This document shows, one piece after another, positions 504 through 56,838 of a stretch of 64,000 bases of DNA. Made by a program: the position numbers and the translations under genes. Source of the stretch: Terebella lapidaria. Taxonomy: Eukaryota > Annelida > Polychaeta > Terebellida > Terebellidae. Below the pieces are notes generated by a model, which was given only the letters and a program-made list of their open reading frames with translations, did no database searches and was not told where the DNA came from. The first letter of the stretch is position 1, and each line of letters opens with the position of its first letter. The stretch spans positions 372,001 through 436,000 of the forward strand of contig OX424560.1 of assembly GCA_949152475.1 (NCBI GenBank), read 5' to 3'.

Positions 504-660
504 CTACTGATTGGGGAACTCCAGGAGGAGCCCCTGTCCTCCGTTCTTGCGGAAAAACGGCCCGTTGGTGCCCAGGTTGATTGTGACTGTTTTTGGCTTG
601 TTTCCTAGATTACATTGTAACGATCGTCCGACATTCACCTTCAAATCTCGCTTGTGGGTT
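504..660 (-). CDS. MYO1D: MYO1D exon 21 (C-terminus and stop)
   Basis: Encodes [20 protein letters not shown], then [17 protein letters not shown] and TAG at 506-504. The layout matches the MYO1D C-terminus. Acceptor TTTTTTGCAG. Confidence 0.93.
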
Positions 661-3600
661 CTGCAAAAAATCATTTTCAGCTCAGTTTTTCCACTGTCTT
701 AGTATCAGAATTAGGAACACAATAACTTTTCACATGACATCAAGAAGCCATCATTGGATGTAATCAGTTGAGAAGTTGAGTACTTACACCATGTACAGCT
801 GACAGAGGTTCCCGACCAGCTCCCCGACTCTCTCCTCCCGTGTGGCCGAGTGCAGACACAGCACCAGGTCGTTCCCGCCGTCCAGGTGAATAATTACCAA
901 CTGATCCGGTCCATGGCCGATACTCAGCCCCGTCATCTGCAAGTTATATCTATCGTGTCAACAGTTTATATATACACGACACGCGGTTATATTTACAATG
1001 TCAACAGTTTGTACACTCTCAAATATTTATTGCGTAAGTGTATTCCGCTTACATCAAGCTCGTTCTGATCAGAAACCGAGACTCACGCTGCTGACGGGAA
1101 TTCCCGACTTCATCGGCTTGAACTTCTTTCCGGGATCCATTTTGTAGATGAACTTATCAGTGATGCACAATCCTCGCTCAGCCGTCTTGTTGAACCTATT
1201 TGTCTGGAAAACAATATCAAAACGTAGAACACAAAATTATTTTTCACCTAAAGAAACTGGAAGAAGTATACAAACATGACAAAAGGGTCGTTTTTTATCA
1301 TACGAGTGAGTTTCTGATAGACGTTGACTCTGAGACGAACCTTTTTGACGAGCGACGAGAAGATGATCCTGTTGAAACGGTCTGCAGCCTTCAATGACGA
1401 GATGTTAGCAACCATCTCTGATGAGCCAGCATGCTCACTTGACTGAAAGTTTTACAAATATGATCATCCCTTCATGTATATGGCAATCTTTATAACTTAG
1501 CAGGTGTTGATTTTTCACCCAAACAATTTTGAGTATGGTTGACATGATTACCTTAGCTAGGTAGTTGCCCTCCCACTTGCGCTGGAAGCCCCAGTCCTGT
1601 CTCTGGCCACGAAGCGCGTCCGCCGCGTAGATCTTGAGGCGTAGTGCGGGGCGGTCCTCCAACGGTACCGGCTTCAGGATCATGTACGCACGCCACCTGG
1701 CGGGCAACAACGAACGGGGGTCAACAACAGATAGGAAATCAACAACAGTCAGTAAGTCAACAACAGACAGGTAAGTCAACAGCAGACGGGGCGTCAGCAA
1801 CAGACAGGTAAGTCAACAACAGATGGGGCGTCAACAACAGACAGGGGTCAACCACAGACGGGGCGTCAACAACTGAAGGGGGTCAACCACAGACGGGGAG
1901 CCAACAGCAGACGAGGAGTTCGAGACAAGGAGGCGTGCAGGATGAAGATTGTCAGGTGATCCACTAACCGTTTGTGAAGTTTCCGCAAAGTTTCTATGTA
2001 GTTGGTCAGTGTGCGCGGAGGCTTGGGGAATCCGATGCTCTTCCCGAAATCTGGCATCCTCTTGGCAGGTCTGAAAATACAATCACACACTCACAATTTC
2101 TTGATGGCACAGGGATACACAACATGCCAAATAGAGTTGCTGAATGGGAAATCTTGCAACATTATCTTGACTCACTTGTACAAAATGGCCAGGTTTTTGA
2201 TGTATGATCGCAATTTGTATCGTCGGTAAAATCTGATGATTCTGTGCACTGCTTTTTTCCGTTTGAACAGTTTTCTTGCCAAAGTTCCTCTCCACATCTG
2301 TGAAAAGCCAAATGCCGCATATTTTACAACTGTGCCTTCCATGCAACTCACTCTTCAGGCCTATGATACTTTTGATTAGAACCGAAATTTTCAGAAAAAA
2401 TCATCATACAAATTCTGAGATATCTTGTTACTGGACAACAGACGAATGTTAGTCCAGAGAAGGAAGAAAATCAAGACAGTGGAGAGCAAACCTTCTGCAG
2501 GAAGAGGACGATCCCAGGAATCATCCTCGCTCTCTCCTCCTCCAACAGGAACAGCGTCTGCGGCGACCGAATGAAAATCTTGGTCTTCCCCCACTTGACA
2601 TCATCACTGACGCCTTTCTCCTGGACAATCTTCTGACAGCCGCTTTTCTCCGAGCCTCCGCGGTAGTTAGGCCACGTGTACTGGGACACCATCTTGTACC
2701 TACGAGGTGTGATTGGACTGCATTTTACTCCAAAGGTAAATGATATTCTCTGATATATATCATAGGGCGGTTTATGATTGATAACTTTTGATCAGTATAA
2801 GCCACGAGCACACAGTCACGTGTCTATATATGAGCAGATACCTGGCAAGGAAGCGAGTGTAGTGCATCCTGTAAGCAAAGCCAGCACGTCGCACGCGCAC
2901 GTTCTCCAGCAGACCGAGGTACAGAGCCTGGTGTCGAACCCGCTCGTCGTTGAACAAAACTGGTGACTTCTCCTCATTCGGCTTGATACATCGCACGTAG
3001 TACGGCTCCTGAGGAGATAGATTGATAACAATACAAAAGTTACTGAAGATAAGTCTTGAAAGAGCTCATTCACAGTTTGTAGTGTATTAGTTGTAAATGA
3101 TTTATGTACTCAACCCTGCAACAGATTTTCTTGGTCAGCCTTGAAGGTGTGACTTCGGTAGTGAAATTTTTCACATCTAATTGATCTTGAAGGCCAAATT
3201 ATCAACACTTGTAAATGCCATTAAAAGCAACATTTCTGACCCCCTGACTGACCTTGAAGGCAATATTTCTTACTTCTGACTGACCTTAGAGGCAATATTT
3301 CTTACTCCTGACTGACCTTGGAGTCAACATTTCTGACCTCTGACCTTGCAGGCAACATTTCTGACCTCTGACTGACCTTGCAGGCAACATTTCTGACCTC
3401 TGACTGACCTTGGAGGTAAGATTTTTTACTTCTGACTGAGCTTGTCAACATTTCTGACCTCTGACCTTGCAGGCAACATTTTTGACGTCTGACTGACCTT
3501 GCAGGCAACATTTCTGACCTCTGACTGACCTTGAAGGGAACATTTCTGACCTCTGACTGACCTTGGAGGCAACATTTCTGACCTCTGACCTTGCAGGCAA

Positions 3601-6600
3601 CATTTCTGACCTCTGACTGACCTTGCAGGCAACATTTCTGACCTCTGACTGACCTTGGAGGCAAGATTTTTGACCAGCTCGATGATGGAAGTCTTGAAGT
3701 TGGTACCCGCTGTGACTGGTCGTTTGGTAACAGCCTGCACACTCTGGGCTCCCTCGGGCCACATCGACCTAGTCAACTCATTCTTGCTGAAATACAAGAG
3801 CAGGATTGAAGACTCAGTAACAAGTTATTATTACATGCCTCAAAGTTCATAATTGCAGTTTTCCCAATCTGATCGCTGACCTCTGACCTCAGGATGTCAA
3901 GACCACTCCCCCCTCTCCCCCCCCCCCCCCCCACACACACACACCTACACAGACAGACCTGTTGTAAAGAAGGCGCTTGAAATCCTGGAACAGCGTGTCT
4001 TTGTTCTTGTCAATGAATCCATCCACCAAATACGCCACGTCGCCAGCGTAGTGTTTGATGCGGAACATCTTGCCGAATTCCAGACTCTTGTCGCTAGGGT
4101 TTGTCTTGCGACTGGCGTAGTGTTTGTGGTTGGAGAGCTTACCGCTCATGGAGTCCAGGAACATCTGGTCATTGACCTTACCGACCACCAGACAGGCCTC
4201 ATCAAGGATGGCCAGGACTCCGGTGTGCTGGGCCTCCACCAGGTCACAAATCACCTTGTTGTTGAAATAGTCCACCTGGGGAAGTGATACAACATGATTG
4301 ACAGGGTTATATAGCCTTACACAACTGTCTGTCCATACTCTGTGCTGTACTCACATGCTGCCACAACACTGTCTGTACATACTCTGTGCTGTACTCACAT
4401 GCTGCCACAACACTGTCTGTACATACTCTGTGCTGTACTCACATGCTGCCACAACACTGTCTGTACATACTCTGTGCTGTACTCACATGCTGCCACAACA
4501 CTGTCTGTACATACTTTGTGCTGTACTCACATGCTGCCACAACACTGTCTGTACATACTCTGTGCTGTACTCACATGCTGCCACAACACTGTCTGTACAT
4601 ACTTTGTGCTGTACTCACATGCTGCCACAACACTGTCTGTACATACTCTGTGCTGTACTCACATGCTGCCACAACACTGTCTGTACATACTCTGTGCTGT
4701 ACTCACATGCTGCCACAACACTGTCTGTACATACTCTGTGCTGTACTCACATGCTGCCACAACACTGTCTGTACATACTCTGTGCTGTACTCACATGCTG
4801 CCACAACACTGTCTGTATACTCTGTGCTGTACTCACATGCTGCCACAACACTGACTGTACATACTCTGTACAGTACTCACATGCTGCCACAACACTGTCT
4901 GTACATACTCTGTGCTGTACTCACATGCTGCCACAACACTGTCTGTACATACTCTGTGCTGTACTCACATGCTGCCACAACACTGTCTGTACATACTCTG
5001 TGCTGTACTCACATGCTGCCACAACACTGTCTGTATACTCTGTGCTGTACTCACATGCTGCCACAACACTGTCTGTCCATACTCTGTGCTGTACTCACAT
5101 GCTGCCACAACACTGTCTGTCCATACTCTGTGCTGTACTCACATGCTGCCACAACACTGTCTGTACATACTCTGTGCTGTACTCACATGCTGCCACAACA
5201 CTGTCTGTACATACTCTGTGCTGTACTCACATGCTGCCACAACACTGTCTGTACATACTCTGTGCTGTACTCACATGCTGCCACAACACTGTCTGTACAT
5301 ACTCTGTGCTGTACTCACATGCTGCCACAACACTGTCTGTACATACTCTGTGCTGTACTCACATGCTGTCACAACACTGTCTGTACATACTCTGTGCTGT
5401 ACTCACATGCTGCCACAACACTGTCTGTACATACTCTGTGCTGTACTCACATGCTGCCACAACACTGTCTGTACATACTCTGTGCTGTACTCACATGCTG
5501 CCACAACACTGTCTGTACATACTCTGTGCTGTACTCACATGCTGCCACAACACTGTCTGTACATACTCTGTGCTGTACTCACATGCTGCCACAACACTGT
5601 CTGTATACTCTGTGCTGTACTCACATGCTGCCACAACACTGTCTGTATACTCTGTGCTGTACTCACATGCTGTCACAACACTGTCTGTACATACTCTGTG
5701 CTGTACTCACATGCTGCCACAACACTGTCTGTATACTCTGTGCTGTACTCACATGCTGCCACAACACTGTCTGTACATACTCTGTGCTGTACTCACATGC
5801 TGCCACAACACTGTCTGTACATACTATGTGCTGTACTCACATGCTGCCACAACACTGTCTGTACATACTCTGTGCTGTACTCACATGCTGCCACAACACT
5901 GTCTGTACATACTCTGTGCTGTACTCACATGCTGCCACAACACTGTCTGTACATACTCTGTGCTGTACTCACATGCTGTCACAACACTGTCTGTACATAC
6001 TCTGTGCTGTACTCACATGCTGTCACAACACTGTCTGTACATACTCTGTGCTGTACTCACATGCTGCCACAACACTGTCTGTACATACTCTGTGCTGTAC
6101 TCACATGCTGCCACAACACTGTCTGTACATACTCTGTGCTGTACTCACATGCTGCCACAACACTGTCTGTACATACTCTGTGCTGTACTCACATGCTGCC
6201 ACAACACTGTCTGTACATACTCTGTGCTGTACTCACATGCTGCCACAACACTGTCTGTACATACTCTGTGCTGTACTCACATGCTGCCACAACACTGTCT
6301 GTACATACTCTGTGCTGTACTCACATGCTGCCACAACACTGTCTGTACATACTCTGTGCTGTACTCACATGCTGCCACAACACTGTCTGTCCATACTCTG
6401 TGCTGTACTCACATGCTGCCACAACACTGTCTGTACATACTCTGTACTGTACTCACATGCTGTCACAACACTGTCTGTACATACTCTGTGCTGTACTCAC
6501 ATGCTGCCACAACACTGTCTGTACATACTCTGTGCTGTACTCACATGCTGCCACAACACTGTCTGTACATACTCTGTGCTGTACTCACATGCTGCCACAA

Positions 6601-9600
6601 CACTGTCTGTACATACTCTGTGCTGTACTCACATGCTGCCACAACACTGTCTGTACATACTCTGTGCTGTACTCACATGCTGCCACAACACTGTCTGTAC
6701 ATACTCTGTGCTGTACTCACATGCTGCCACAACACTGTCTGTACATACTCTGTGCTGTACTCACATGCTGCCACAACACTGTCTGTACATACTCTGTGCT
6801 GTACTCACATGCTGCCACAACACTGTCTGTACATACTCTGTGCTGTACTCACATGCTGCCACAACACTGTCTGTACATACTCTGTGCTGTACTCACATGC
6901 TGCCACAACACTGTCTGTACATACTCTGTGCTGTACTCACATGCTGCCACAACACTGTCTGTACATACTCCGTGCTGTACTCACATGCTGCCACAACACC
7001 GACTGTACATACTCTGTGCTGTACTCACATGCTGCCACAACACTGTCTGTACATACTCTGTGCTGTACTCACATGCTGCCACAACACTGTCTGTAAATAC
7101 TCTGTGCTGTACTCACATGCTGCCACAACACTGTCTGTACATACTCCGTGCTGTACTCACATGCTGCCACAACACTGTCTGTACATACTCCGTGCTGTAC
7201 TCACATGCTGCCACAACACTGTCTGTACATACTCTGTGCTGTACTCACATGCTGCCACAACACTGTCTGTACATACTCTGTGCTGTACTCACATGCTGCC
7301 ACAACACTGTCTGTACATACTCTGTGCAGTACTCACATGCTGCCACAACACTGTCTGTACATACTCTGTGCTGTACTCACATGCTGCCACAACACTGTCT
7401 GTACATACTCTGTGCTGTACTCACATGCTGCCACAACACTGTCTGTACATACTCTGTGCTGTACTCACATGCTGCCACAACACTGTCTGTACATACTCTG
7501 TGCTGTACTCACATGCTGCCACAACACTGTCTGTACATACTCTGTGCTGTACTCACATGCTGCCACAACACTGTCTGTACATACTCTGTGCTGTACTCAC
7601 ATGCTGCCACAACACTGTCTGTACATACTCTGTGCTGTACTCACATGCTGCCACAACACTGTCTGTACATACTCTGTGCTGTACTCACATGCTGCCACAA
7701 CACTGTCTGTACATACTCTGTGCTGTACTCACATGCTGCCACAACACTGTCTGTACATACTCTGTGCAGTACTCACATGCTGCCACAACACTGTCTGTAC
7801 ATACTCTGTGCTGTACTCACATGCTGCCACAACACTGTCTGTACATACTCTGTGCTGTACTCACATGCTGCCACAACACTGTCTGTACATACTCTGTGCT
7901 GTACTCACATGCTGTCACAACACTGTCTGTACATACTCTGTGCTGTACTCACATGCTGTCACAACACTGTCTGTACATACTCTGTGCTGTACTCACATGC
8001 TGCCACAACACTGTCTGTACATACTCTGTGCTGTACTCACATGCTGCCACAACACTGTCTGTACATACTCTGTGCTGTACTCACATGCTGCCACAACACT
8101 GTCTGTACATACTCTGTGCTGTACTCACATGCTGCCACAACACTGTCTGTACATACTCTGTGCTGTACTCACATACTGCCACAACACTGTCTGTACATAC
8201 TCTGTGCAGTACTCACATGCTGCCACAACACTGTCTGTACATACTCTGTGCAGTACTCACATGCTGCCACAACACTGTCTGTACATACTCTGTGCTGTAC
8301 TCACATGCTGCCACAACACTGTCTGTACATACTCTGTACAGTACTCACATGCTGCCACAACACTGACTGTATACTCTGTGCTGTACTCACATGCTGCCAC
8401 AACACTGTCTGTACATACTCTGTGCTGTACTCACATGCTGCCACAACACTGTCTGTACATACTCTGTGCTGTACTCACATGCTGCCACAACACTGTCTGT
8501 ACATACTCTGTACAGTACTCACATGCTGCCACAACACTGTCTGTACATACTCTGTGCAGTACTCACATGCTGCCACAACACTGTCTGTACATACTCTGTG
8601 CTGTACTCACATGCTGCCACAACACTGTCTGTACATACTCTGTACAGTACTCACATGCTGCCACAACACTGACTGTATACTCTGTGCTGTACTCACATGC
8701 TGCCACAACACTGTCTGTACATACTCTGTGCTGTACTCACATGCTGTCACAACACTGTCTGTACATACTCTGTGCTGTACTCACATGCTGCCACAACACT
8801 GTCTGTACATACTCTGTGCTGTACTCACATGCTGCCACAACACTGTCTGTCCATACTCTGTGCTGTACTCACATGCTGCCACAACACTGTCTGTACATAC
8901 TCTGTGCTGTACTCACATGCTGCCACAACACTGTCTGTACATACTCTGTGCAGTACTCACATGCTGCCACAACACTGTCTGTACATACTCTGTGCAGTAC
9001 TCACATGCTGCCACAACACTGTCTGTACATACTCTGTGCTGTACTCACATGCTGCCACAACACTGTCTGTACATACTCTGTGCTGTACTCACATGCTGCC
9101 ACAACACTGTCTGTACATACTCTGTGCTGTACTCACATGCTGCCACAACACTGTCTGTACATACTTTGTGCTGTACTCACATGCTGTCACAACACTGTCT
9201 GTACATACTCTGTGCAGTACTCACATGCTGCCACAACACTGTCTGTACATACTCTGTGCTGTACTCACATGCTGCCACAACACTGACTGTACATACTCTG
9301 TGCTGTACTCACATGCTGCCACAACACTGTCTGTACATACTCTGTGCAGTACTCACATGCTGCCACAACACTGTCTGTACATACTCTGTGCTGTACTCAC
9401 ATGCTGCCACAACACTGTCTGTACATACTCTGTGCAGTACTCACATGCTGCCACAACACTGACTGTACATACTCTGTGCTGTACTCACATGCTGCCACAA
9501 CACTGACTGTACATACTCTGTGCTGTACTCACATGCTGCCACAACACTGTCTGTACATACTCTGTGCTGTACTCACATGCTGTCACAACACTGTCTGTAC

Positions 9601-12600
9601 ATACTCTGTGCAGTACTCACATGCTGCCACAACACTGTCTGTACATACTCTGTGCTGTACTCACATGCTGCCACAACACTGTCTGTACATACTCTGTGCT
9701 GTACTCACATGCTGCCACAACACTGTCTGTACATACTCTGTGCTGTACTCACATGCTGCCACAACACTGTCTGTACATACTCTGTGCTGTACTCACATGC
9801 TGCCACAACACTGTCTGTACATACTCTGTGCTGTACTCACATGCTGCCACAACACTGTCTGTACATACTCTGTGCTGTACTCACATGCTGCCACAACACT
9901 GTCTGTATACTCTGTGCTGTACTCACATGCTGCCACAACACTGTCTGTACATACTCTGTGCTGTACTCACATGCTGTCACAACACTGTCTGTACATACTC
10001 TGTGCTGTACTCACATGCTGCCACAACACTGTCTGTACATACTCTGTGCTGTACTCACATGCTGCCACAACACTGTCTGTACATACTCTGTGCTGTACTC
10101 ACATGCTGCCACAACACTGTCTGTACATACTCTGTGCTGTACTCACATGCTGCCACAACACTGTCTGTACATACTCTGTGCTGTACTCACATGCTGCCAC
10201 AACACTGTCTGTACATACTCTGTGCTGTACTCACATGCTGCCACAACACTGTCTGTATACTCTGTGCTGTACTCACATGCTGCCACAACACTGTCTGTAC
10301 ATACTCTGTGCTGTACTCACATGCTGTCACAACACTGTCTGTACATACTCTGTGCAGTACTCACATGCTGCCACAACACTGTCTGTACATACTCTGTGCA
10401 GTACTCACATGCTGCCACAACACTGTCTGTACATACTCTGTGCTGTACTCACATGCTGCCACAACACTGACTGTACATACTCTGTGCTGTACTCACATGC
10501 TGCCACAACACTGTCTGTACATACTCTGTGCAGTACTCACATGCTGCCACAACACTGTCTGTACATACTCTGTGCTGTACTCACATGCTGCCACAACACT
10601 GTCTGTACATACTCTGTGCAGTACTCACATGCTGCCACAACACTGACTGTACATACTCTGTGCTGTACTCACATGCTGCCACAACACTGTCTGTACATAC
10701 TCTGTGCAGTACTCACATGCTGCCACAACACTGACTGTACATACTCTGTGCTGTACTCACATGCTGTCACAACACTGTCTGTACATACTCTGTGCTGTAC
10801 TCACATGCTGTCACAACACTGACTGTACATACTCTGTGCTGTACTCACATGCTGCCACAACACTGTCTGTACATACTCTGTGCTGTACTCACATGCTGCC
10901 ACAACACTGTCTGTACATACTCTGTGCTGTACTCACATGCTGCCACAACACTGTCTGTACATACTCTGTGCTGTACTCACATGCTGTCACAACACTGTCT
11001 GTACATACTCTGTGCTGTACTCACATGCTGCCACAACACTGTCTGTACATACTCTGTGCTGTACTCACATGCTGCCACAACACTGTCTGTACATACTCTG
11101 TGCTGTACTCACATGCTGCCACAACACTGACTGTACATACTCTGTGCAGTACTCACATGCTGCCACAACACTGTCTGTACATACTCTGTGCTGTACTCAC
11201 ATGCTGCCACTCGATGCCTTCTCTCATGTACTCCTCTTGTTCTTGTTTTAGCACCAGTTCTATGAACAGTTGTTGTAGTTTTTCATTGCAGTAGTTGATA
11301 CAAAACTGCTCAAAACTGCGAAAGTAAGATGTAACCTTAGAACATCCGAGAAGGCATTATTAGAAAACATTGTTGCATAGTATGCATACTGACTGAAGTC
11401 TTGTACCGACCTGTTGTTGTCGAAGATCTCAAAGCCGTAAATATCCAACACTCCAATCACCGTGTTTCCGCCGCGTAGACTCTGACGCCTCTCAACTTCA
11501 ATGGATTTGTTGATCCGACTCACAATCCATGAGAACATTCGGTCGTAGATCGCCTGAAAAAAAAATCCTCTCCAAATTCACCAAGAGCACACTGACTTTG
11601 TAATCAACAATTCTCACACAGACTTTGAATGTAAAGCCACAAGGAGAAGGTCACAATGTATAACTCTGTCATGATGAAAGCTTGCTGAGTGACCTCTGAC
11701 CTTGGCGAAGGCATCCCGTCCATAGTCAGCCTGTTCCACGGTGTGACCTTTCTCCATGACCTCCCCGCGCGTGGCGACAACCCGTGAGCACAGAGCTTTC
11801 TCCGCCTCCCCAAGGTCCACCTCCATCAGCCTAGCAACCGTCTCCAGGGCCGCTCGGTCCCGCACTCGTGCCTCATCGCTCTCACACTCCTCAAACTGCA
11901 GGTTACCCTGGCAACAAACAAACAATAGGTTACCGCTTGACTTCATACTGTGACTCAACCTTCAGTCAGGAGACCTTGAGTTCCCGAGTGCTGGCACTCA
12001 CCAGGTGTAGTATAGCAGCGACAGTCGTCCAGAGCGTCTCAATCTGAGCAGCGGCAAAGCCGATTGCCTTCATAGCATTGTTGACGGCCTTGTAATCGTC
12101 TCGGTCACTAATAGACGTCACCTGCCAGCGACAGAGCAAAAGGTTACCATGATTACCATCTATCACCCTTCGTCATGATAAACAATACAGTTCACTATGC
12201 ATAGACTGTGGGGACCTTTTTAATGCACACATATGATACGGGTAGGTGTGTCATCATGAATTAATTTGATAAATCCCAAAATACGATAATGGCACCTTAA
12301 AAACAGCTGTTGTGAATTAATCCTACAAAAGGAAGACAAAATGTGTAATGTTGTTAGTGTGCAGGACACTGTCAGTCTCACTGCTAGCATGACTGAACAT
12401 AACAATTATTACTGAAACATGAAAACAAAATATTAATATATTATAGGCAATATCAGTGTTGCAATATCAACTGACAGTTAATATCCTGTGATGATTACAT
12501 ATTAGTGAATAGTTACCTGAACAATTATAAGTGAGGAATTCATTTGTAGGGATCAATTAAGTTTTGAAAGTGATGTTAACTCTGAACCATTAGAAATTAG

Positions 12601-15600
12601 ATAAATCACCTGTTTTTGTGAAGCATGCAATAGAAGATATTCAGATCTAGTAATAGATTCTGAGTGACTTGATCATTTGTTCTGGCATCTTAGTGGTCAA
12701 GCTGACCGAGTTACAACCCCTGTACATGATTAGTTTGGGGACCATGGTAACTACAGATAGCCTGGGTTGGCTGTTAGTGCCAGGTGGGTCTACAGTTTGT
12801 ACCGTGAACTCCATGCCGTCTCTATCCATGCGGAACGTCGAGCGACGAGTGACAATCTGAAAATTGTCACGCCACAGCACAGCTTTATCAATCAACGTCC
12901 GTAAACACTGACCATTGCAAGGCACTAAGACCACAGGGAGTCTATACAATGCAGGTTTTACAACCACACAACAATTTACTACCTATCACAAACAAAGAGT
13001 TCATGCCAATACTTCACCAATCAACAATGTTTTGAAAACCTTTAAAACGTTGTTTTCGAAGACACCGATGTCAATCATACAGCAACTGCTTCTTGCCAGA
13101 TATGATACAAACAATTCCAGATTGGTACAAGTATACAAAGAACATCCTAGACACCACCCCATGGCCTGCACCCCCTCCTCTACCCATCTGTACCTTGGAC
13201 TGTCCGCCCTGGTTCAGGAAGTGGTACATTGACCCCCCCCCCCCCCATCTGTACCTTGGACTGTCTGCCCTGGTTCAGGTAGTGGTACATTGACCCCCCC
13301 CCCCCCCCATCTGTACCTTGGTCTGTCCGCCCTGGTTCAGGTAGTGGTACATTGACCCTCCCCCTCCCCCCATCTGTACCTTAGACTGTCCGCCCTGGTT
13401 CAGGAAGTGGTACATTGACCCTCCCCCCCCCCCCATCTGTACCTTGGACTGTCTGCCCTGGTTCAGGTAGTGGTACATTGACCCTCCCCCTCCCCCCATC
13501 TGTACCTTAGACTGTCCGCCCTGGTTCAGGAAGTGGTACATTGACGGGTCCTTGGCCAGTTTGAACTGGGATAGCTTCTGGTCGCCCGACCCAAACAGCA
13601 ACTGTAACCATGTCAACAGAACAGTTAGATATCATCAAATAAAACATAGCACCACGGGCTAAGATAGGTTACCAGACAATATTGGTTTAACGTTTAAACA
13701 CCACAGGTGAGATATGACCTTGAGATTTACCAATCGAGGTCATCTTTGTGAACCTCAATCCCACCATTAGGTGTGCAGCATACAATGTATCACTTCATGT
13801 TCATAATACAAACATAAGCTCTATCAACAAGTATTTTGTCTAGAGGCCAATTTACACATTTCAGGTCAGGCATGACCTTATGATTTAGCATTCGAGGTCA
13901 ACCTCTTGGTCAGCTATACATGCACCATATATGACTTCCTATAATGCAATCCTAAGCTGTTTGTGCAAGTGCTTAGCCCCAGAGGCCAATTTATACATTT
14001 CTTGTGTAAAATCACCTGACGTCAAGTTCAAGGTCACCAAATACAAACATATAAGCTCTATCTTAGTATTTTGTCTGCAGAATCCAATTCACACACAGGT
14101 CAGGCGATACGTTGAGATTTAGTCTTGAAGGTCATTTAAGGTTATGTTCCACCAAGAGAATAACATTCAGAAAGATTCGACCATATACTTTGAAGTTAAA
14201 ATTGTGGATGACGGATGCAATGCCACGCCATCTTCAAGTTATTGGACCATATGTCTGGTAACCAAAAATTGCATTGCACCTTCACTTGACATTTGGGGGA
14301 ACTTTGTGGACATCGATATTTGATGATCTCTAAAACATTGTAACATTTGTGGACTTGGGAAACTGACCTGGTAGAACGAGTGGAAGTTGCGCTCGCCTTT
14401 TTGCTGGTGAACCACCCGAGACTGCAAAAACAAACAGGTACAAGTCTTACTATCAAATCACTCTCTATACAATCCACAACCTTTCTACAACCAGGTGACA
14501 AGTGTAAAGTTACATTATGATTAAGACACCCCCACCCATGTCAGGTTACATTATGATACCAGCGTGTAGTAACATTATGACAGTGCTTTACTACAAAGTA
14601 AATTTACTGAAAGACAATGTCAAAGATACCCAGGATAGATCACTGTTTTCAGGGATGCTGGTACATTGGGTACATTATGACAGGACACACAAACCTTCTC
14701 CAGAAGGTAGTTGTTGATGTGGCCCCCGATCGGGTCGCCCTTGAAGTCAAAGTTGATGTCCATGTACTTGCCAAATCTGCTGGAGTTGTCATTGCGATTG
14801 GTTTTGGCATTTCCAAATGCTTCCAGAATACAGTTTGACTGCAGCAGGATGTTTTTCACCCTAAAACAATAAAATAATATCTCACCCTAAAACAATAACA
14901 TAATATCTCACCCTAAAACAATAACATAATATCTCAACTTCAAATACAACAGCTGTATAATATGGTTAGAAATATATGTTTAGTTGTTTAGCTGGTATTA
15001 TACAACAACAAACTCCCACCTCTCCACCTCCTTCTGACCCCCCACGTTGGTTACCGCGGCGATGTATTTCATGATGATCTTGGAGGCCTCTGTTTTCCCA
15101 GCACCACTCTCTCCTGTACAGCCAAGATAGAAAAAGTTTGAAAAATTTGATAAAAGGGCACAAACCGGAATCAACAATGTCAATTCTGCTCCATATTTGC
15201 ACAAGAAATATAAATACTTTTCAGGATACATCAAATATTTCATAACAAGAATATTCAATATACCGTATTGGTCCTAATAGTGGCACATGCCCCAATAGTG
15301 ATCATGATAGTAGAGCACCCCCATTCTTTTGCCCAAAAATGTTCGATTTTTGTAACCAAATAATTCACTTCATATTTTTCTAATAAGGTAATGGAATGTT
15401 CAAATCCAAACATTCATGTTATTTGAATCATAATAAAGGAGATTAAAGGCTATAGGTATAATATTCAACATTTTTCTTAAATTTGACCTCAAGTTTGGCC
15501 TCAATTTTGCTCGCGCTGCTGCAGGGAGTCTTGCTTTGGCTCACCGTGCTACTATTAGGACCAATACGGTAATACATGTAATATGGGGAACATATTTTCA

Positions 15601-31530: not shown

Positions 31531-31531
31531 T

Positions 31532-31546: not shown

Positions 31547-31590
31547 AGGATCTGAGCTAGTCTCGGATTACCGACCCTAACTTACCGGCA

Positions 31591-38700: not shown

Positions 38701-40110
38701 CCCCGGCCTTGTTATCTGATTGATATCATTGATGATGAATTATGCATGTCTAATGGACTATGATATCATGTCATTCCTTATAATAATATATTATATTACA
38801 ATAACAATATATGCATTTAATATGTACAAGATGTCAGTGAGGCGAATTCGATATATATACATGTGATATGATTTCATAATTACGATGCTGGTGAAAAATT
38901 GATTGCAATATGATATGTGTTTCGACCCCGTATAACGTATGCTATTGTTCCGCGTGTGTTACGCACAAACTAAAATTATCATGTCAAATTTCAATCCATG
39001 TGTCAGCCGAAGAGGATAATATTCATGTCACGCCGTGAGTAAGGCCACTTAGTTGTCGAAGAGGTGGTAGTGTGATTCGTTCCGGGGTATGCGTCGACAG
39101 AGCCTCTACCCACTCCATGTAGCATTCGGAGGAACGGCCCAGTGGTACGGGAACCAGTCACGGAAAAGCTATCATACCAAGATGCGGCCTGTCATCAAAT
39201 CCATCACATAAATATTCAAAGCGCCACGGTGTGACCGACCCTGATCATTGCCATCTCGACCCCCTACAATATAGCGGCCCCGTTGTCTTGTGAACTGGCT
39301 GAAAACGATGTCCGCCCCTGTGAGTGATTGATATTAATATCTCAGCCTTTAATAACTGTGTGTCGTCTGTGAAACAGCAATTCGGCCGTTCGTTTATTGT
39401 GCGCTAACTCTGAAAGAAAAGGAACGATCAAAGAATCAGTTCACAAGGTTCGCACGAGCGCAGATAAACATTTAAGCTGTTTACAGCACCCACATGAAAT
39501 CTCCTCTGATAAAGACAATAGTGAGTCGTCGGGCAAAAAGAGCCCAGTAATTCGAACAGTCGATTAGCACAAATAGACAATGTATAGGAACGTGTAATCC
39601 AGGGGACGGCAGATGAATATTTGGAAAAATGGACAGTGTGAGGACCCCCCTACTGTCGTAATGGACTGACCCGGATAGGTCAGAGAGAGATCGTACCAGC
39701 GTTTCCCTGACGACGGCCCGCCTTGCTGCAGATACGCTTGGAACAATGGGATACAGCGTAAAGACGTTTTTGTATATCGGCAGAGAGCGCCCCCCGGCCC
39801 GATTCGTGGAATTGGGATACTGATAAGCATCTCAGTGTACGGCAGTGGAAATTTAGCGGCAAGTAGGTCATTTGCGCCTGAACTTTTGAAGTGGCAGGAG
39901 CTCTTTTGTGTCGAAAGGAAGATTTGTGGCAATTATCACGGACTATTCTTTCGATAATTACGGACATTGTAAGAAGGAAATTAATAGCTCGGGATAAGTG
40001 ACGAACACTGTGTCGGATCGGATTACTAGGTCGGCTCTGAAGAGATTGGGACTTATAAGTTACAGTCGGCCTAATCCGTATAGTGAGACATTCGCACTTC
40101 GGCTTTCATC
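38701..40110 (+). other. Non-coding spacer between pol and the 3' ORF of the Ty3/gypsy element
   Basis: About 1.4 kb without a convincing frame, AT-rich at first (38720-38900). It may hold a splice acceptor or internal promoter for the downstream ORF, but I see no decisive signal. Confidence 0.6.
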
Positions 40111-42754
40111 ATGGCTGACAAGCCTGGCGATGATAAAGATGATGACGGCTCTAATGATAATCGGCCTCGTTCCATCAAGTTTGACGGAACCAAATTGACA
40201 GTTGAGGTTGTCGAGCGTGGTGATGAAGAGGACAACCCAATTGTACTGACGGACGAGGAGTTGTCCGCGATCGGCCCCGAACCCAGTTCGGAACAAACAG
40301 CTACGGCATCCGGCCCAAATAAACAGCCACGATACAAAATCATGGCGAGACTGGCGCAACGCGGCTCCCGGCACACTCCGAGTCTGACCTCAGAGGACGA
40401 CCCGGATCGTTTTCGGCAACTAGAGGAAGGTGGGGAAATTGTTCGTCGAGCCTTGGAGGCTCAACGCGTGGCGGAAGCCGCCAGCTCGGCAAAGTCGGCT
40501 CCCGCTCAGCAGGCGATGACACCAATCGAGCCTGCCCCAGCATCTTCGGCCTCATCAACGCCGGTAGTTCGGCCCCGTGCCGTCACGTCACCGGCACAGT
40601 CTTCGGCTTCGTCAGCGAGTTCGTCGTCCGGCAGAAGTCCTCACTCGTCGGCGCGAAGTTCGCGACGCGCTAGTTCCGGCCCTGTGACACGTGCTTCGGC
40701 TTATCGTCGTCAGATATCGGAGCTCATGGCTCTAGTTCCGGCCCCAATCACTCCGTACGGAGCTCGGCCGATTAACTGGAACGACGTTCCGTTCCATCTT
40801 CGGAACCGACATGATGGTTACGGTCATGAACACAATTTCGGCGCACCCTCACGACTTACGGAGGGAAATTTGGCGACCTTGGAGCCACTAAGGAGGGAAG
40901 ACGGCCGGTATTTATGTCCCTTCTGTATTGGAGAGGAGGATGGAGAGGAAGGGAGGATATGGCCAACGGTACCTCGACGTGGACCTTTCCGTTCGGCCTC
41001 GGATTTGGACGCCCACGTCCTGGCGTACCATTTTCTGCTTCAACGATTTTTCGTCTGTCCGGCCAAAGACAATTACGTCACGCTCACGTCGGAAGACATG
41101 ATTCGGCACCTGAGTGAGGCAACACAGACCCACGTCGGCATTCTCCCGCTGTTTGAGCAGGGACAGCTCAACGCTTCCGGCCCTATGCTGCAACGGTTCG
41201 CGCTACGCTGCCGCGTAGATATGCAGCCCAGTCCAAACTACCGGCCTCCTCGTGTTCCGGCCGACATCCCAATCTTCCGACGGGATGTCAACAGAGTGCT
41301 CACTTTCGGGATTTGGCACATGGCGCCTCCACTGTTCGAGCAATACCCCCCGAATTCGGCCCCTGAAATTCATCAAGTGCTCCGACGCCTTGAGTACCTT
41401 CGGCCTTCAACCCGAGCGGAGGAGGATCGCCTAGCTCGGATGATCAATGACATCATGGCGATGAATCGCTGGGTAACCATACGTCGGCCTAGCACAATAT
41501 TTTTCACTCGGCCAGTCGCCTACCAGACGGACGCACTCAAGCCTCCCAGCTCCGTGGTTTCGTAGCCATCGGCTCAATCCACCCCTGTGACGACCCAGGT
41601 GCAAACTCGGCCATCGGACATCATCCCACGGAAACTTGTGGTAGAGCGGCCTACGGCGACAAACGTCACAGATTATCGCGTGAGGGAAGGATTGGTTCCC
41701 CCACCGGAGGAATTTTCTCCTTTGTCGGCACCGCCTCCGACAGGACAAGAGACCGACCGGAAGGAGGTAACGGCCCAGTCACGGGACTCTCCTCCACCTC
41801 TACAGCGGGCTGCGGAGGAAGCCCGCCAGGAATCGATTTCGGCCTCGGTCAGCGACCGTGAGGATTCGCCCCTTCCGTCCAGGCGAACGGTCCTTCAGAC
41901 GGACGAACCTCCATATCTGGACAGCAGCATGGAAGTAATACAGACGGTCGTTACTAAGGATTCGACCGCTGATCGGCCGCGGCTACAATATGACGAGCCT
42001 GAGTCGCTGGAACCTCTCCACAGGGACTTGGATGAACGGCTGCCGTTTCACGGCTCAGGAGAGTTTTCGGCTGATATCCAATTTGTGCAGCAGCACGGGA
42101 CACGGTTGTCGACTCGGATGCTTCCCGGCCTACAGGCCCTGCCAGGGCAGAACCCGGATCTGGCCAACCCCCTCAGGAGTCGGGAAGCGAACCAGCTTCC
42201 AAATCTTCCCCGTGTCCACGAGGAACATTGGGTGTCTCATATCGCCCAGGCGGCCCACAACGCCGACCCATTGATCTTGCCGGCCCGGAAGAGTGAACAC
42301 CTTCCGACCTTGTACCTGGCACGCGCCGATGACAAGGCGAACCAACACTTTCGGGAGATCCGGCGTTTCTACCTAGAAGCTATGGACCAACATATTCGGC
42401 AGGCTGAGTATAACGGCCTCTCTGTGGGATTCGGGATGGGAGCCATCCACGAACGGCATCTCCCGACCTTCCCTGATCGTCGGGAGATGCCGGACGAAAA
42501 ACGAGGATTTACGGCAGGAGAACGAACAGTTACGTGCCCGGGTGACACACCTGGAGCAGTCGGCCCCAGTTTCGACCTCGACAGATACGGCCGCGACACA
42601 GAGCGACTCGGGTACAACTATCCCGGGCGACCTGCTCGCCACTATTGTGTCGATTTTGCCCCGTCTACCACCAGAGGAGCAACAACAACTAATGCGGCAG
42701 GCGTCGCCGGCACCACCACCCCCTCCGGCTGGCAAGCAAGGCAGGAAAGAGTAA
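40111..42754 (+). pseudogene. Extra 3' ORF of the Ty3/gypsy element (zinc finger and coiled coil), broken
   Basis: Begins MADKPGDDKDDDGSNDN and runs about 480 codons to TAG at 41563-41565. It continues in the same frame to about 42470, then the coding signal moves to another frame and ends at TAA 42752-42754. Seen: an acidic N-terminus, a Ser/Ala-rich linker (40500-40680), a possible C2H2-type finger near 40910-41020 (CPFC then HVLAYH), a predicted helical region ending FREIRRFYLEAMDQHI, a coiled coil ENEQLRARVTHLEQ (42518-42560) and a proline tail PAPPPPPAG. It sits where some elements carry env, but no signal peptide or membrane span is seen. I do not recognise the family. Confidence 0.7.
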
Positions 42755-42774
42755 GCGTTTCGGCCTGGTGGTGA

Positions 42775-43284
42775 TGAATGAGAAGCTGTCGGCCTTAAAT
42801 GAATTATGTCGGCCCGATGAGAGAAAGTGACTTGGAAAATCCTGGTCACTGTGATCATCCTGGTCATGTCGGCTCATTGTAATGTCGGCCAAAATCTGTA
42901 AATATTTGTAAATAGTTATCCTAGTCACGGCATTTTATCCATGTAATTTAGTTAAGGTTAATCCAGACATTTCTTTTTCAGTTTATAGACTCTAAATAGT
43001 TTCCGTTTCATTATGAAACGTCGAGGAGTTTTGTTCATACATTCCATTCGTTATCATTCGTTGTTGTGCATGTATGTGTAAATGTATCATCGTAGCGACT
43101 ATTGACGGACTGACTGATGACGTTTATTTTGACGGTTAGAAATTTTTATTGTATTTATTTACCATTGTCGCGCGGCGTGTGTGTGTGAGTGTTGGGGTTT
43201 GACCTTGTAGGACTTTTTAGCTTTTTATTGTTAGTTTTTGGCGACGGTAGGGTCCGGGTAGGGTAATTCCGAGGGCGTAGAATT
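42775..43284 (+). other. Non-coding tail of the Ty3/gypsy element before the 3' LTR
   Basis: About 500 bp between the extra ORF and the purine tract, with a short (GT)n at about 43178. No frame of interest. Confidence 0.6.
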
Positions 43285-43299
43285 AATGAAGGGGTGTAA
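43285..43299 (+). promoter_or_regulatory. Polypurine tract of the Ty3/gypsy element
   Basis: AATGAAGGGGTGTAA directly precedes the 3' LTR, the expected plus-strand priming site. Confidence 0.8.
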
Positions 43300-44042
43300 T
43301 GTAGTAATTTTAGCGACTGTAACCCCCGTCCCTCCCACGCATACATATTTCCACAACAAACATTCATTCTACATGACTTACATACAGGACAAGTACACAC
43401 TATACGATCACAAGCATAAACTCCATGTAGTCATGGTTACACACACAGGTCAATCCACATGCACTTGCGGCCCCATTCATTCGGTACATCGACCCAGTTA
43501 GTTTCGGCCTTGACCTTTACCAGCACCTACTTCTAAACATAGAACATGGCATGCATAACACTCACATCACGTGCACAGATACAGACCATAGTAGTCAAGA
43601 CACGCACCGGGGAATTCCACTTTCCCGGTGAGATCAGCATACATTCAGCCAATGACACAACACCGCAGACATTTGGCGGGAAAACCTACACCACATGTTG
43701 CCGGCCCCGGCTTTTCTCAGGGAGTTGAGAAGTGGATGTCCTCATGAGCAGACGTGTTACAAAATGTGGCCGTGATTGTAAAGTGAAGGCCTAACGCGAG
43801 GACTATTAGATAACTGAACTGTGATATTCATATGTTGGATTGTTCAAAGGACTAAATATCTAGGATATAGTGTTGTCGACAGGGATTCATCGGACTTAGG
43901 TGTGTTCGGCCTTGTAGTGTGTTTGCGGCATTGTCGGCTATCATCCCAAATAAATTATTGAACTGAACTGCCGGCCTTGTGATTTGCACAGCGATCACAG
44001 ACATTTCGGCCTGATGTCGGCTGCAGAACGATATTTATCACA
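43300..44042 (+). repeat. 3' LTR of the Ty3/gypsy element
   Basis: 743 bp, TGTAGTAATTTTAGCG to TATTTATCACA, with AATAAA at 43949-43954. Near-identical to 30788-31530. Confidence 0.94.
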
Positions 44043-44112
44043 CTGGTTGTAGTTCTAGTAATTACGACGCCCGTCGCGGGCGCCCTGTGAGCCGCGGGCG
44101 TCAAATGTCACA
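44043..44112 (+). mobile_element. Probable right end of the older LTR split by the Ty3/gypsy element
   Basis: Starts with the duplicated CTGG and continues TTGTAGTTCTAGTAATTACG, a GC-rich self-complementary stretch (CGCCCGTCGCGGGCGCC) and TGTCACA. This parallels CTGGTTACCGTTCTGATGAT and the GC-rich repeats at the right end of the copy ending at 63420. The assignment is tentative. Confidence 0.45.
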
Positions 44113-48050: not shown

Positions 48051-48054
48051 CCAA

Positions 48055-51493: not shown

Positions 51494-51539
51494 TCACCTC
51501 CGCAAGTGGTTGGTGATCCATTCTAATCCCTGGTACAAT
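51494..51539 (-). CDS. ARL5: ARL5 exon 6 (C-terminus and stop)
   Basis: Encodes [14 protein letters not shown] and TGA at 51496-51494, matching the LCQGLEWM end of ARL5. Acceptor TTTACAG. Confidence 0.94.
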
Positions 51540-54500
51540 CTGTAAACAAATCCAATCATCAAGTTAGACCAACACAGTCTACTAGAACAAAGTCATGTGA
51601 GTAACTAATACTCAAGTAAATACTGTCCTATGAACATGGTACCCTTACCTTAGATACTAACCCCTCCCTGAGATACTAACCCCTAACTGAGATACTAACC
51701 CCTTCCTGAGATACTAACCCCTCCCTGAGATGTTAACCCCCCTCCCTGAGATACTAACCCCTCCCTGAGATACTAACCCCCCCCCCTGAGATACTACCCC
51801 CCCCCCCCCCCGAGATGCTAACCCCTCCCTGAGATGCTAACCCCTCCCTGAGATACTAACCCCTCCCTGAGATACTAACCGGTCCCGGAGATACTAACCC
51901 CTCCCTGAGATGCTAAGTTACTAACCCCTCCCTGAGATGCTAACCCCTCCCCGAGATACTAGCCCCTCCCTGAGAAGTTAACCCCTCCCTGAGATGCTAA
52001 CCCTCCTGAGATACTAACCCCTCTCTCAGATACTAACCCCTCCCTGAGATACTAACCCCTCTCTCAGATACTAACCCCTCCCTGAGATACTAACCCTTCC
52101 CCGAGATACTAACCCCTCCCCGAGATACTAACCCCTCTCGGAGATACTAACCCCTCCCTCAGATACTAACCCCTCTCCGAGATACTAACCCCTCCCTGAG
52201 ATACTAACCCCTCTCTGAGATACTAACCCCTCTCTGAGATACTAACCTCTCCCTGAGATACTAACCCCTCTCTGAGATACTAACCCCTCCCTGAGATGCT
52301 ACCCTCTCCCTGAGATACTAACCCCTCCGTGAGATACTAACCCCTCCCTGAGATGCTAACCACTCTCTGAGATACTAACCCCTCGTTGAGATACTAACCC
52401 CTCCCTGAGATACTAACCCCTAGTTGAGATACTAACCCCTCCCTGAGATACTAACCCCTCCCTGAGATACTAACCCCTTCCTGAGATACTAACCCCTCCC
52501 TGAGATACTAACCCCTCCCTGAGATACTAACCCCTTCCTGAGATACTAACCCCTCTCCAGTCAAGGCACAGCAGGCCTGTATGTGCCAGCCATGATCCTT
52601 GATAGCTGTCAAATTTAGCTGCTGCGAGATTTCTGCTGATGACATTGCTCCTTTTAAATCTTGCTTGTTGGCGAAAACCAAAACGGCTGCCTTCTTCAGA
52701 TCCTGTAAATCAGAAACAACATATGTCAGAGATTTGCCCTCTCAATTCTCCACTTCCGGGCTATTTGGTATTTAAAAAGTATCTTCAGCTGAAACAGAAG
52801 TAATGCATGGACAACTGAATGGCGATTTAATTCTTTGTCGCACAGCATTGAATCTGATACATAAGACATTGCTATGTTTATAAAAAAAGTCCAGGACTAT
52901 AGGTAACACATAGGACATTGCTCTGTTTATCCAAAGTCCAGGACTATAGGTAACACATAGGACATTGCCCTGTTTGTCCAATGTTCAGGACTTTAGACAA
53001 TGCATAGGACATTGCTCTTGTCAATGTCTAGGACTATAGGCAATACATAGGACATTGCTCTGGTTGTCCAATGTACAGGACTATAGGCAATACATAGGAC
53101 ATTGCTCTGTTTGTCCAATGTCCAGGACTATCTAGGCAAATGTATTGAATAAGGCAACACATAGGACATTGCTCTGCTTGTCTAGTGTCTAGGATTATAG
53201 GCAATACATAGGACATTGCTCTGTTTGTCCAATGTCCAGGACTATAGGCAATACATAGGACATTGCTCTGTTTGTCCAATGTCCAGGACTATAGGCAATA
53301 CATAGGACATTGCTCTGTTTGTCCAATGTCCAGGACTATAGGCAATACATACGACATTGCTCTGCTTGTTTAGTGTCTAGGATTATAGGCAATACATAGG
53401 ACATTGCTCTGTTTGTCCAATGTCCAGGACTATAGGCAATACATAGGACATTGCTCTGTTTGTCCAAAGTCCAGGACTATAGGCAATACATAGGACATTG
53501 CTCTGTTTGTCCAATATTCAGCATGTTCAGGACTACAGACAATACATAGGACATTGCTCTGTTTTTCCAATGTCCAGGACTATAGGCAATACATAGGACA
53601 TTGCTCTGCTTGTCTAGTGTCTAGGATTATTGGCAATACATAGGACATTGCTCGGTTTGTCCAATGTTCAGGACTATAGGCAATACATAGGACATTGCTC
53701 TGTTTCTCCAAAGTTCAGGACTATAGGCAATACATAGGACATTGCTCTGTTTGTCCAATGTCCAGGACTATAGGCAATACATAGGACATTGCTCTGTTTG
53801 TCCAATGTCCAGGACTATAGGCAATACATAGGACATTGCTCTGTTTGTCCAATGTCCAGGACTATAGGCAATACATAGGACATTGCTCTGTTTGTCCAAT
53901 GTTCAGGACTATAGGCAATACATAGGACATTGCTCTGCTTGTCCAATGTCCTGGCCTATAGGCAATACATAGGACATTGCTGTGTTTGTCCAATGTCCTG
54001 GACTGGACTATAGGCAATACATAGGACATTGCTCTGTTTGTCCAATGTCCAGGACTATAGGCAATACATAGGACACTGCTCTGTTTGTCCAATGTCCAGG
54101 ACTATAGGCAATACATAGGACATTGCTCTGTTTGTCCAATGTCCAGGACTATAGGCAATACATAGGACATTGCTCTGTTTGTTCAATGTTCAGGACTATA
54201 GGCAATACACAGGATATTGCTGTTTGTCCAATGTCCAGGACTACAGGCAATACATAGGGCATTGCTCGTTTGTCCACTGTTCAGGACTATAGGCAATACA
54301 TAGGACATTGCTCTGTTTGTTCAATGTTCAGGACTATTGCCAATACATAGGACATTGCTCTGTTTGTCCAATGTCCAGGACTATAGGCAATACATAGGAC
54401 ATTGCTCTGTTTGTTCAATGTTCAGGACTATAGGCAATACATAGGACATTGCTCTGTTTGTCCAATGTCCAGGACTATAGGCAATACATAGGACATTGCT

Positions 54501-56838
54501 CTGTTTGTCCAATGTCCAGGACTATAGGCAATACATAGGGCATTGCTCTGTTTGTTCAATGTTCAGGACTATAGGTAATAAATAGGACATTGTTCTGTTT
54601 GTCCAATGTTCAGGACTATAGGCAATACATAGGAAATTGCTCTGTTTGTCCAATTTCCTGGACTATAGGCAATACATAGGACATTGCTCGTTTGTCCAAT
54701 GTCCAGGACTATAGACAATAATAGGCCATTGCTCTGTTCGTCCAATGTACAGGACTATAGGCAATACATAGGACATTGCTCTGTTTGTCCAATGTTCAGC
54801 ATGTCCAGGACTATAGGTAACACATAGGACATTGCTCTGTTTGTCCAATGTCCAGGACTACAGGTAATAAATAGGACATTGCTCTGTTTGTCCAATGTCC
54901 AGGACTGTAGGCAATACATAGGACATTGCTCTGTTCGTCCAATGTCCAGGCCTGATTTGACATCTATAACTACTGTCTGACTGAATCTTCCGACGACTTA
55001 TACAGTTACAGGTAACCATAATTACATATCATCAAAATCACAGGAATACATTGCATACTATTATTATTGAAAGATTGTTGGAATTTTTTATTTCTCAGAA
55101 CAACGCATTAACCTAAACGATACAGATGAACACAAACCTCGCAGGCAAGCATTCGACACAATTCCTCCTTGGTGATGCTGAGTCGTTCTCGGTCTGTGCT
55201 GTCTATCACCAAGATAATGAACTACAACAACAAAATAATAGACTCCTCATTACTGTGAAACGATTAATTTTGCAGCTATTTAATTTGGCTAACGTGAGGC
55301 CAACGTTATTTGGTGGAGATTTAATTTGGCAGTTTCAAAATCATGTAATATCCATATTCATATAAATCTAGTTAATTCGACGGATGATTTAATTTGGCGG
55401 TTTTTGCCCTACCGCCAAATAAATGGTTCGCCAAAATTAGTCGTTTTACAGTGATTGCACACAAGTTTTGGACCAGGAAATTGAAACTCAAGTTTTGCTT
55501 TAAAAAAGAAGAGCTCTTCAACTTTATGATAAATAGAGAACACTGACCTCGGTGTTGGCGTAGTAAGTGTTCCAAGCCGTGCGTAGCGAGTCTTGTCCGC
55601 CGATGTCCCACATGATAAAATGAATGTTTTTCCAGATCACCTCTTCCACATTACTCCCGATGGTGGGCGACGTGTGCACAACTTCATTCATTAAACTGTG
55701 AATGATATCAAAGCATGTTTTAATACTTTTGTTCTTAAAAATATACTGAAGAGTCAAATTATTATGTGCTGACAAAGGCTCATCAAAATAATCACCAAAC
55801 AAATTGAAAGTATGCATTTAAAAGGCACATGCACAACTCACAACTGATAGAGGATTGTAGTTTTGCCAGCATTGTCCAATCCAACAATTATGACCTTGTG
55901 CTCTGTTTGGGAGAAAGTAGAAATGTATTGATCAATATAAAGGGGTACATCCAATATTGTAATGACTTTCTTATTATTTCATGTCATGGACCGATTATCA
56001 TGGACCTGGTGTCCTATAATTAGTAGCATTACTGCAAGTTGTACTAGATTCTATTTCTTGTGTTTACTGACGAAAATTTATGAGCTGAAATTGAAAAACT
56101 TTTGCTCAGCACGGCTGTATATTCAAATCATTTAATGGCCAAAGTCTGCGTTGGAAAATGTATCTCCAATATACAGGAAATATTTCCAAAACGGGCTATT
56201 GTCCGAAGCGGAATGAATCCAGCAAGACTGTCCGAAGGACCAAAGCGGTTTGAGTCGGACCAAGTGAGTAACGGACTTAGTCATAAGGTGATACACAAAT
56301 AAAAAGCAAATATATACATGATATAATTGGTATCATCTATTATGACTCAAAAGTCGAAATATCAACAAAACACTACAATGCACTCCGTTTCTAATGATCC
56401 GCCATTGTCGTCACTGATCGTCACAGTTTGTTACACAATCGTCAGATCTATTGTATTGTAATGGATATGCCTGCGTTTTCACCCCAATTGTGATCCTGAA
56501 AATTACTTTTCCCACCATCAAACATGAGTAGATGACCATAAATTTTATATAACACCAAAAACTACTCCACAAAGCATGACAAAGGTCTGTTTCATGACAT
56601 TTCCCCCCCTTGAAGTGGTCCGACTTTGGACAATCTGACCCGATTCAGTCCGCTTCGGACAATACAGGGGCCGTCCAAAACTGTCTGACTCTGTCATATA
56701 CACAAATCAAATCATGAAATGTTTGGCATGGAAGTCTAGTGACAGTGGTGAACAGTGAGTGTATAATTCAGTCAGAATGGTATGATACAGACCTTCATTG
56801 CTGAATAAGCTCCACAACTTTGACAACAGCATACCCAT
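51494..56838 (-). CDS. ARL5: ARL5-type Arf-like small GTPase, complete gene (six exons)
   Basis: Small GTPase of the Arf/Arl family. CDS = complement of join(51494-51539, 52551-52702, 55138-55221, 55548-55695, 55842-55902, 56793-56838), 537 nt, 178 residues, with all phases consistent and GT-AG borders. Seen: Gly2 for N-myristoylation in [10 protein letters not shown]-loop GLDNAGKT (23-30), switch [12 protein letters not shown], switch II WDIGGQ with Gln70, NKQD (125-128) for guanine specificity, and CCAL before a short C-terminus. [14 protein letters not shown] and [16 protein letters not shown] are ARL5 signatures, and the length equals ARL5A/B (about 179). Family knowledge: Arl5 acts at the trans-Golgi and recruits the GARP tether. 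The start has G at -3 and +4. Introns 4 and 5 carry minisatellites. Confidence 0.96.
51645..52550. repeat. 19-bp minisatellite copying the ARL5 exon 5 splice donor (intron 5)
   Basis: About 45 units of GAGATACTAACCCCTCCCT on the plus strand. The minus-strand unit holds GGGAGGG/GTTAGTATCTC, matching the exon 5 end GGAGAGGG and donor GTTAGTATCTC. The array begins exactly at the donor and fills about 90% of the intron. Units vary mostly in the C-run and the TCCCT part. Confidence 0.94.
52551..52702 (-). CDS. ARL5: ARL5 exon 5 (NKQD and CCAL)
   Basis: Encodes [15 protein letters not shown] and on to [12 protein letters not shown]. Acceptor ATTTACAG. The donor GGAGAGGG/GTTAGT is the template of the intron 5 minisatellite, so neighbouring AG/GT registers could also be argued. 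This one keeps frame with exon 6. Confidence 0.95.
52850..54950. repeat. 47-bp minisatellite in ARL5 intron 4
   Basis: About 44 imperfect units holding CAATGTCCAGGACTATAGGC, AATACATAGGACATTGCTCT and GTTTGTC. The array starts about 190 bp inside the exon 4 donor and does not copy it, so it is an ordinary intronic minisatellite. Minus-strand frames in it are artefacts. Confidence 0.95.
55138..55221 (-). CDS. ARL5: ARL5 exon 4
   Basis: 28 codons: [20 protein letters not shown] and LCRMLACE, the conserved DSTDRER region. Acceptor GTTGTAG, donor GAG/GTTTGT, phase 0. Confidence 0.96.
55548..55695 (-). CDS. ARL5: ARL5 exon 3 (switch I and switch II)
   Basis: Encodes [19 protein letters not shown] and [20 protein letters not shown]. 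Acceptor TTCACAG, donor GAG/GTCAGT, phase 0. Confidence 0.97.
55842..55902 (-). CDS. ARL5: ARL5 exon 2 (P-loop)
   Basis: Encodes [19 protein letters not shown] with the G1 motif. Acceptor AAACAG, donor CAGTT/GTGAGT, phase 2. Confidence 0.96.
56793..56838 (-). CDS. ARL5: ARL5 exon 1 (start, myristoylation signal)
   Basis: Encodes [15 protein letters not shown] and leaves in phase 1 with donor GAAG/GTCTGT. The N-terminal amphipathic helix and Gly2 are typical of Arf/Arl proteins. Confidence 0.92.

Follow-up and report, generated by a model that had tools for sequence, protein, structure and literature searches.

Tandem repeat arrays across exon–intron borders of MYO1D and ARL5 in an annelid and their likeness to amphioxus 'mirage' minisatellites

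Minisatellites that repeat an exon–intron border are known from amphioxus as 'mirages'. They were reported at 5′ and 3′ borders of Adh3 and of the globin genes BflGb6 and BflGb9 (PMC3087553) as well as in troponin C and PGBD5 (PMC3902484); RT-PCR suggests normal splicing, and the phenomenon is possibly general in cephalochordates (PMC3087553, in the portions of text available). According to the available parts of the respective sources, human internal tandem repeats in segmental duplications include minisatellites on exon–intron borders that can alter splicing (PMC2812944), the metallothionein genes of an earthworm, also an annelid, carry minisatellite-class repeats in their introns and duplicates of the fourth exon that are missing from the final transcript (PMC12783039), and the Rogers model explains intron gain by AGGT tandem duplications that copy a splice signal (PMC4974935). 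A preliminary description of the locus analysed here had named the amphioxus mirages as a precedent for arrays at 5′ splice sites, and the published reports (PMC3087553, PMC3902484, as far as available) bear this out. In the following, "the window" refers to the whole stretch of 64,000 nucleotides that was analysed.

Gene models and arrays at splice borders

The window contains two complete coding regions, both on the minus strand, whose exons were placed by splice signals, open reading frame, and homology: MYO1D (504–28563; 22 coding exons, 1024 aa; exon 1 at 28563–28466, stop at 504) and ARL5 (51494–56838; 6 coding exons, 178 aa; best solved chains 1yzg and 1z6y). The rebuilt genes have 26 introns in all (median length 233 bp) instead of the 25 counted previously, and the introns formerly numbered 10 and 12 of MYO1D become 11 and 13 once exon 1 is counted. 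An acceptor of MYO1D exon 19 at position 1388 was rejected, as all 12 aligned relatives had 16–18 extra residues there, and position 1442 was adopted. The latter was used in the junction scan of donors and acceptors and in the seed-placement null; the merging of arrays, tree, alignment with relatives, unit alignments, donor conservation, and GC skew were based on the acceptor at 1388, and the arrays are unaffected by this choice. A tree of 33 MYO1D proteins (midpoint root) paired the window protein with that of Paralvinella, an alvinellid annelid, at a support of 100/100. The pair fell into a group of 12 rows including Capitella, Ridgeia, and two Helobdella rows; Owenia (an annelid) was placed outside of this group. 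Based on this pairing, the window was assigned to an annelid, and an origin from amphioxus was rejected.

The remainder of the window includes an LTR element of ~13.3 kb (30788–44046) with 747-bp terminal repeats that are 98.7% alike and with reverse transcriptase, RNase H, and integrase domains, the order of which suggests a Ty3/gypsy-like element; two further long frames of the element (40111–41565 and 41587–42774) had no Pfam match. Repeats with AGGTCA-like stretches, dispersed and in part tandem, were found at 21496–25916 and 59907–60163, with up to 91% likeness between the copies in MYO1D intron 1 and those of the 60-kb region.

Tandem Repeats Finder returned 43 rows in the window, and merging of overlapping rows yielded 19 arrays within the two genes, five of which overlap a splice donor (all on the minus strand). 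In MYO1D, these are intron 2 (18290–19453; 43-bp unit, ~26 copies; donor 19437/19436), intron 6 (13170–13545; 63-bp unit, i.e., 21 codons, ~6 copies; donor 13506/13505), intron 11 (4324–11210; 44-bp unit, ~157 copies; donor 11201/11200), and intron 13 (3166–3675; 32-bp unit, ~14–16 copies; donor 3654/3653). The array in intron 11 occupies nearly all of the 6925 bp of its intron, and 94 of its 157 units are identical, which in the single haplotype analysed would be at most an indirect hint of length instability; that in intron 13 ends at 3227 according to Tandem Repeats Finder, with degenerate distal units. The fifth array lies in ARL5 intron 5 (51641–52555; 19-bp unit, ~47 copies; donor 52551/52550). 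All five overlap donors that yield an open, homologous protein, and the arrays at donors noted previously are thus real. The claim that donors alone are hit is not supported, since ~3.1–3.5 copies of a 26-bp unit (14856–14949, minus strand) span an acceptor as well, that of MYO1D exon 4, whose first base is 14860, and the 5:1 ratio gave a two-sided binomial P of 0.22. Two further arrays are located away from the borders: a 47-bp array in ARL5 intron 4 (52857–54950, ~44 copies) lies apart from any splice site, and a 36/37-bp array in MYO1D intron 17 (1705–1919) stops 8 nt short of the acceptor and does not enter the exon.

A scan of all 52 junctions for tandem matches at lags of up to 250 nt (MYO1D introns 2 and 6 exceed this reach for the donor–acceptor copy test) recovered the same borders: five of the 26 donors and one of the 26 acceptors carried a spanning match and, within this range of lags, the other 46 junctions had none. 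The weakest spanning score was 15 (MYO1D exon 2); off the arrays, none of 347 exonic positions and 34 of 1983 others reached this value. Across the five arrays, the GT of the donor was kept in 243 of 253 unit columns (the authentic donor being counted in four arrays), with 25 of 26 units in MYO1D intron 2, 6 of 6 in intron 6, 157 of 157 in intron 11, 10 of 16 in intron 13, and 45 of 48 in ARL5 intron 5.

Exon share, duplication edges, and chance expectation

The exon part of each unit was measured by gapped wrap-around alignment to the unit consensus. It comprised 40 nt at MYO1D exon 6 (39 matching), 22 nt at exon 13 (19 matching), and 10 nt at exon 11 (10 matching). At ARL5 exon 5, it was 5 nt (5 matching) and too short to count alone, and at MYO1D exon 2 it was 17 nt with 13 matches and an uncertain duplication edge, the register there being doubtful because the 43-bp unit has AGGTCA twice; this is the weakest case of the five. 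When the exon side was scored alone against the unit, MYO1D exons 6, 13, and 11 reached 75, 29, and 20, and MYO1D exon 2 and ARL5 reached 15 and 10, compared to 16 and 14 for the acceptor regions of those two introns, which are unrelated. Judged by these alignments, an exon share of the unit is clear at three donors (MYO1D introns 6, 13, and 11); in intron 5 of ARL5 and intron 2 of MYO1D, the array begins at the donor, and an exon contribution is uncertain. The preliminary description, which had all five units repeating their own exon–intron border and had proposed the comparison with the adjoining exon, therefore holds for exons 6, 13, and 11, where the exon part exceeded background, and is uncertain for ARL5 with its 5 nt and for the doubtful exon 2.

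Duplication edges were located at differing distances of 5–40 nt inside the exon (doubtful in intron 2) and not at AGGT. At four of the six joins, microhomologies of 2, 3, 4, and 3 bp (GT, GTG, AGGG, and TGA) were read by eye; those of MYO1D introns 13 and 2 were not resolvable in this way. A microhomology total of at least 12 bp has a chance of 4.8e-4 under random breakpoints, a value uncorrected for the freedom in reading, and such joins agree with slippage or end joining. Nicking at AGGT as the source of the edges, as had been proposed previously, was rejected, since the edges lie upstream in the exon and these four joins carry other microhomologies. Intron gain with both intron ends derived from one exon segment was considered as well, and no clear copy of the unit was found at the acceptor side of the five introns: of 200 shuffles each, 14, 148, 96, 200, and 23 matched the score of unit against acceptor (MYO1D introns 2, 6, 11, and 13, and ARL5 intron 5). 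Intron gain by AGGT tandem duplication is hence not supported; decayed old copies may be present.

For the chance expectation, the seed of each array was free to fall at any position within its own intron, with arrays collapsed, or over either edge (own-intron null). Approximately 1.0 donor hit was expected, with a single-array donor chance of up to 0.26, because the introns are short and the units long; in most of these introns, a duplication of 20–60 bp will often touch an edge. P(≥5) was 1.3e-3 for all 19 arrays, 8.1e-4 for the 13 arrays with at least 2.5 copies, and 7.6e-4 for the 11 arrays with at least 3 copies; P(≥4) was 0.009 to 0.012, and P(≥3), applying to the three strict cases, was 0.060 to 0.072. 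Placement across the whole genes yielded P(≥5) of 2.4e-3, 7.8e-5, and 4.6e-5 (19, 13, and 11 arrays), P(≥4) of 9.0e-4 to 0.017, and P(≥3) of 0.011 to 0.083. Counting donors and acceptors together under the own-intron null gave P(≥6) of 2.2e-3 to 4.5e-3. As the window was chosen for showing the pattern and the P values are uncorrected for this choice, they suggest rather than prove an excess of arrays at donors. The weight that had been placed on five hits among 25 introns is reduced accordingly, with about one donor hit expected already and only three clear exon parts.

Donor use and origin of the arrays

In an alignment with 12 relatives, no insertion of at least 4 residues was observed at MYO1D introns 2, 11, and 13 among the relatives covering them, and ARL5 aligned to solved ARL5-type chains in a single stretch over intron 5. 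Support is thinner at MYO1D intron 6, where 1 of 12 relatives (Paralvinella) has 8 extra residues and the next exon is absent in 9 of 12. Reading on past the first donor met a stop within 150 nt in MYO1D introns 2 and 11 and ARL5 intron 5. The units of these three introns are not multiples of three, so that use of a later donor would shift the frame or include a stop, and the donor on the exon side should therefore be the working one. Intron 13 is open throughout the 150 nt read past its first donor, and in intron 6 the 63-nt unit is open through four donors, all of which would keep the frame. The reading frames of MYO1D introns 6 and 13 would thus allow splicing from a later donor that keeps the frame; in intron 6, later donors could add multiples of 21 residues. 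The donors of MYO1D exons 6 and 7 were the two lowest-scoring of the 26, using a matrix built from the same 26. Exon 7 (12856–12803, 18 aa) lies shortly after the intron-6 array and showed no likeness to it by eye; a corresponding block of at least 9 residues was present in 5 of 120 listed matches (P0001, P0009, P0010, P0031, and P0053), with that of P0053 probably misaligned.

We favour, with modest confidence, the explanation that these arrays are mirage minisatellites in an annelid, which arose as border-straddling duplications that were tolerated and then expanded. A short tandem duplication (unit of 19–63 bp) would land across an exon–intron border and be joined via microhomology of 2–4 bp, much as happens in replication slippage or end joining. 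It would be tolerated because the exon-side copy preserves coding sequence and splice site and the extra copies are intronic; duplications within exons would mostly be purged by selection, and those spanning an acceptor are likely less tolerated, since the mRNA gains sequence when a further acceptor lies upstream. The array would subsequently grow and homogenise by slippage or unequal exchange, resulting in a train of decoy splice sites. That both kinds of border are hit, which is also the case in the amphioxus globins, and that breakpoint distances differ supports this model, and the three strict cases (P of 0.06–0.07 under the own-intron null) can be reached by simple seed placement. In the 157-copy array, adjacent units were more alike than in permuted order (1 of 2000 permutations reached the value), as local turnover predicts. 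If all five donor cases are counted, a P of ~1e-3 strains the simplest form of the model, and there may be something extra at donors.

One candidate for this extra is a mutability linked to the donor, in which a G-rich sense strand past the 5′ splice site promotes R-loops or single-stranded DNA and duplications start at donors. With all five cases included, the donor matches exceed the expectation from seed placement, and the sense-strand GC skew at intron positions +7 to +40 was 0.30 at the five array donors vs. −0.12 at the 21 remaining donors (one-sided P = 0.0034); however, this was one of three windows tried post hoc, the other two yielding P = 0.32 (exon side) and 0.067 (whole), and with the three strict cases the donor excess fades to P = 0.06 (own-intron null). 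When the donor 9-mer is left out, the sense strand of the five units is still rich in G (skew of 0.17–0.29). Distal units were more diverged, and those near the donor accordingly more uniform, in MYO1D introns 2 (rho = −0.42, P = 0.03) and 13 (rho = −0.58, P = 0.015), with a marginal trend in ARL5 intron 5 (rho = −0.29, P = 0.05), but no such trend was found in intron 6 (P = 0.14, 6 units) or in the largest array, i.e., intron 11 (rho = 0.10, P = 0.20); growth from the donor end would fit some arrays only. An acceptor is affected as well, and donor-linked mutability is regarded as possible but rather unlikely. The broader proposal that 5′ splice sites are hotspots of minisatellite birth in distant animal phyla via transcription or splicing (R-loops, a non-template strand rich in G), where arrays would expand from their exon side and present up to ~157 competing donors, appears unlikely, its odds being lowered by the fact that only three exon parts are clear and by the P(≥3) of 0.06.

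The same two values raise the odds of plain chance, i.e., that intronic arrays are common, introns short, and the window was picked among many for its overlaps. The 19 merged arrays in two genes, the median intron of 233 bp, the single-array donor chance of up to 0.26, and the presence of only three exon parts above background speak for it; the P(≥5) of ~1e-3, if all five count, and the exon shares at exons 6 and 13 (40 and 22 nt), which are not attributable to chance, speak against it, and it is considered improbable. Selection might instead retain the repeated donors, either as U1 snRNP sites that prevent premature polyadenylation within long introns or for use in alternative splicing. The retention of GT in 243 of 253 columns and the in-frame intron-6 unit with its first four frame-keeping donors point in this direction, as do the donor 9-mers, whose conservation slightly exceeded that of the remaining unit columns (pooled rotation P = 0.024) and counts against pure neutrality. 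In intron 13, however, GT is kept in 10 of 16 units only and the donor 9-mer ranked 19th of 32 rotations, and conservation says little in the largest array, the units of which are young and homogenised. Selection for the donors is regarded as very unlikely.

Comparison with described systems

Read as tolerated border duplications, the worm arrays can be set beside the described systems. With the amphioxus mirages they share minisatellite-like copies of the border, a unit size within the 10–160 bp reported, and splice signals in many units (PMC3087553, PMC3902484, available portions); as judged from sequence, the worm arrays have the structural features of a mirage. They differ in their occurrence in an annelid, at five donors and one acceptor of two neighbouring genes, and in an array of ~157 copies. 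The human border repeats have been tied to new introns in primate paralogues (PMC2812944, available portion), and the Rogers model likewise concerns the gain of introns (PMC4974935, available portion), whereas the acceptor side of the worm introns carries no clear copy of the unit. In the available portion of the earthworm metallothionein report, a span of splice sites is not stated (PMC12783039); the worm arrays span donors.

Reports of border-spanning minisatellites were found for amphioxus and human and none for annelids among the matches listed, which does not prove their absence. New here are the distant phylum, the density of six borders within two adjacent genes, and the array of ~157 donors. 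The presence of six mirages in a pair of neighbouring annelid genes suggests a process common to distant animals, and the worm provides a second lineage for asking whether splice donors are prone to mutation. The largest array poses the question of how one exon selects the first of ~157 near-identical donors, and in intron 6, with its unit of 21 codons, splicing from later donors could extend the myosin motor by in-frame repeats.
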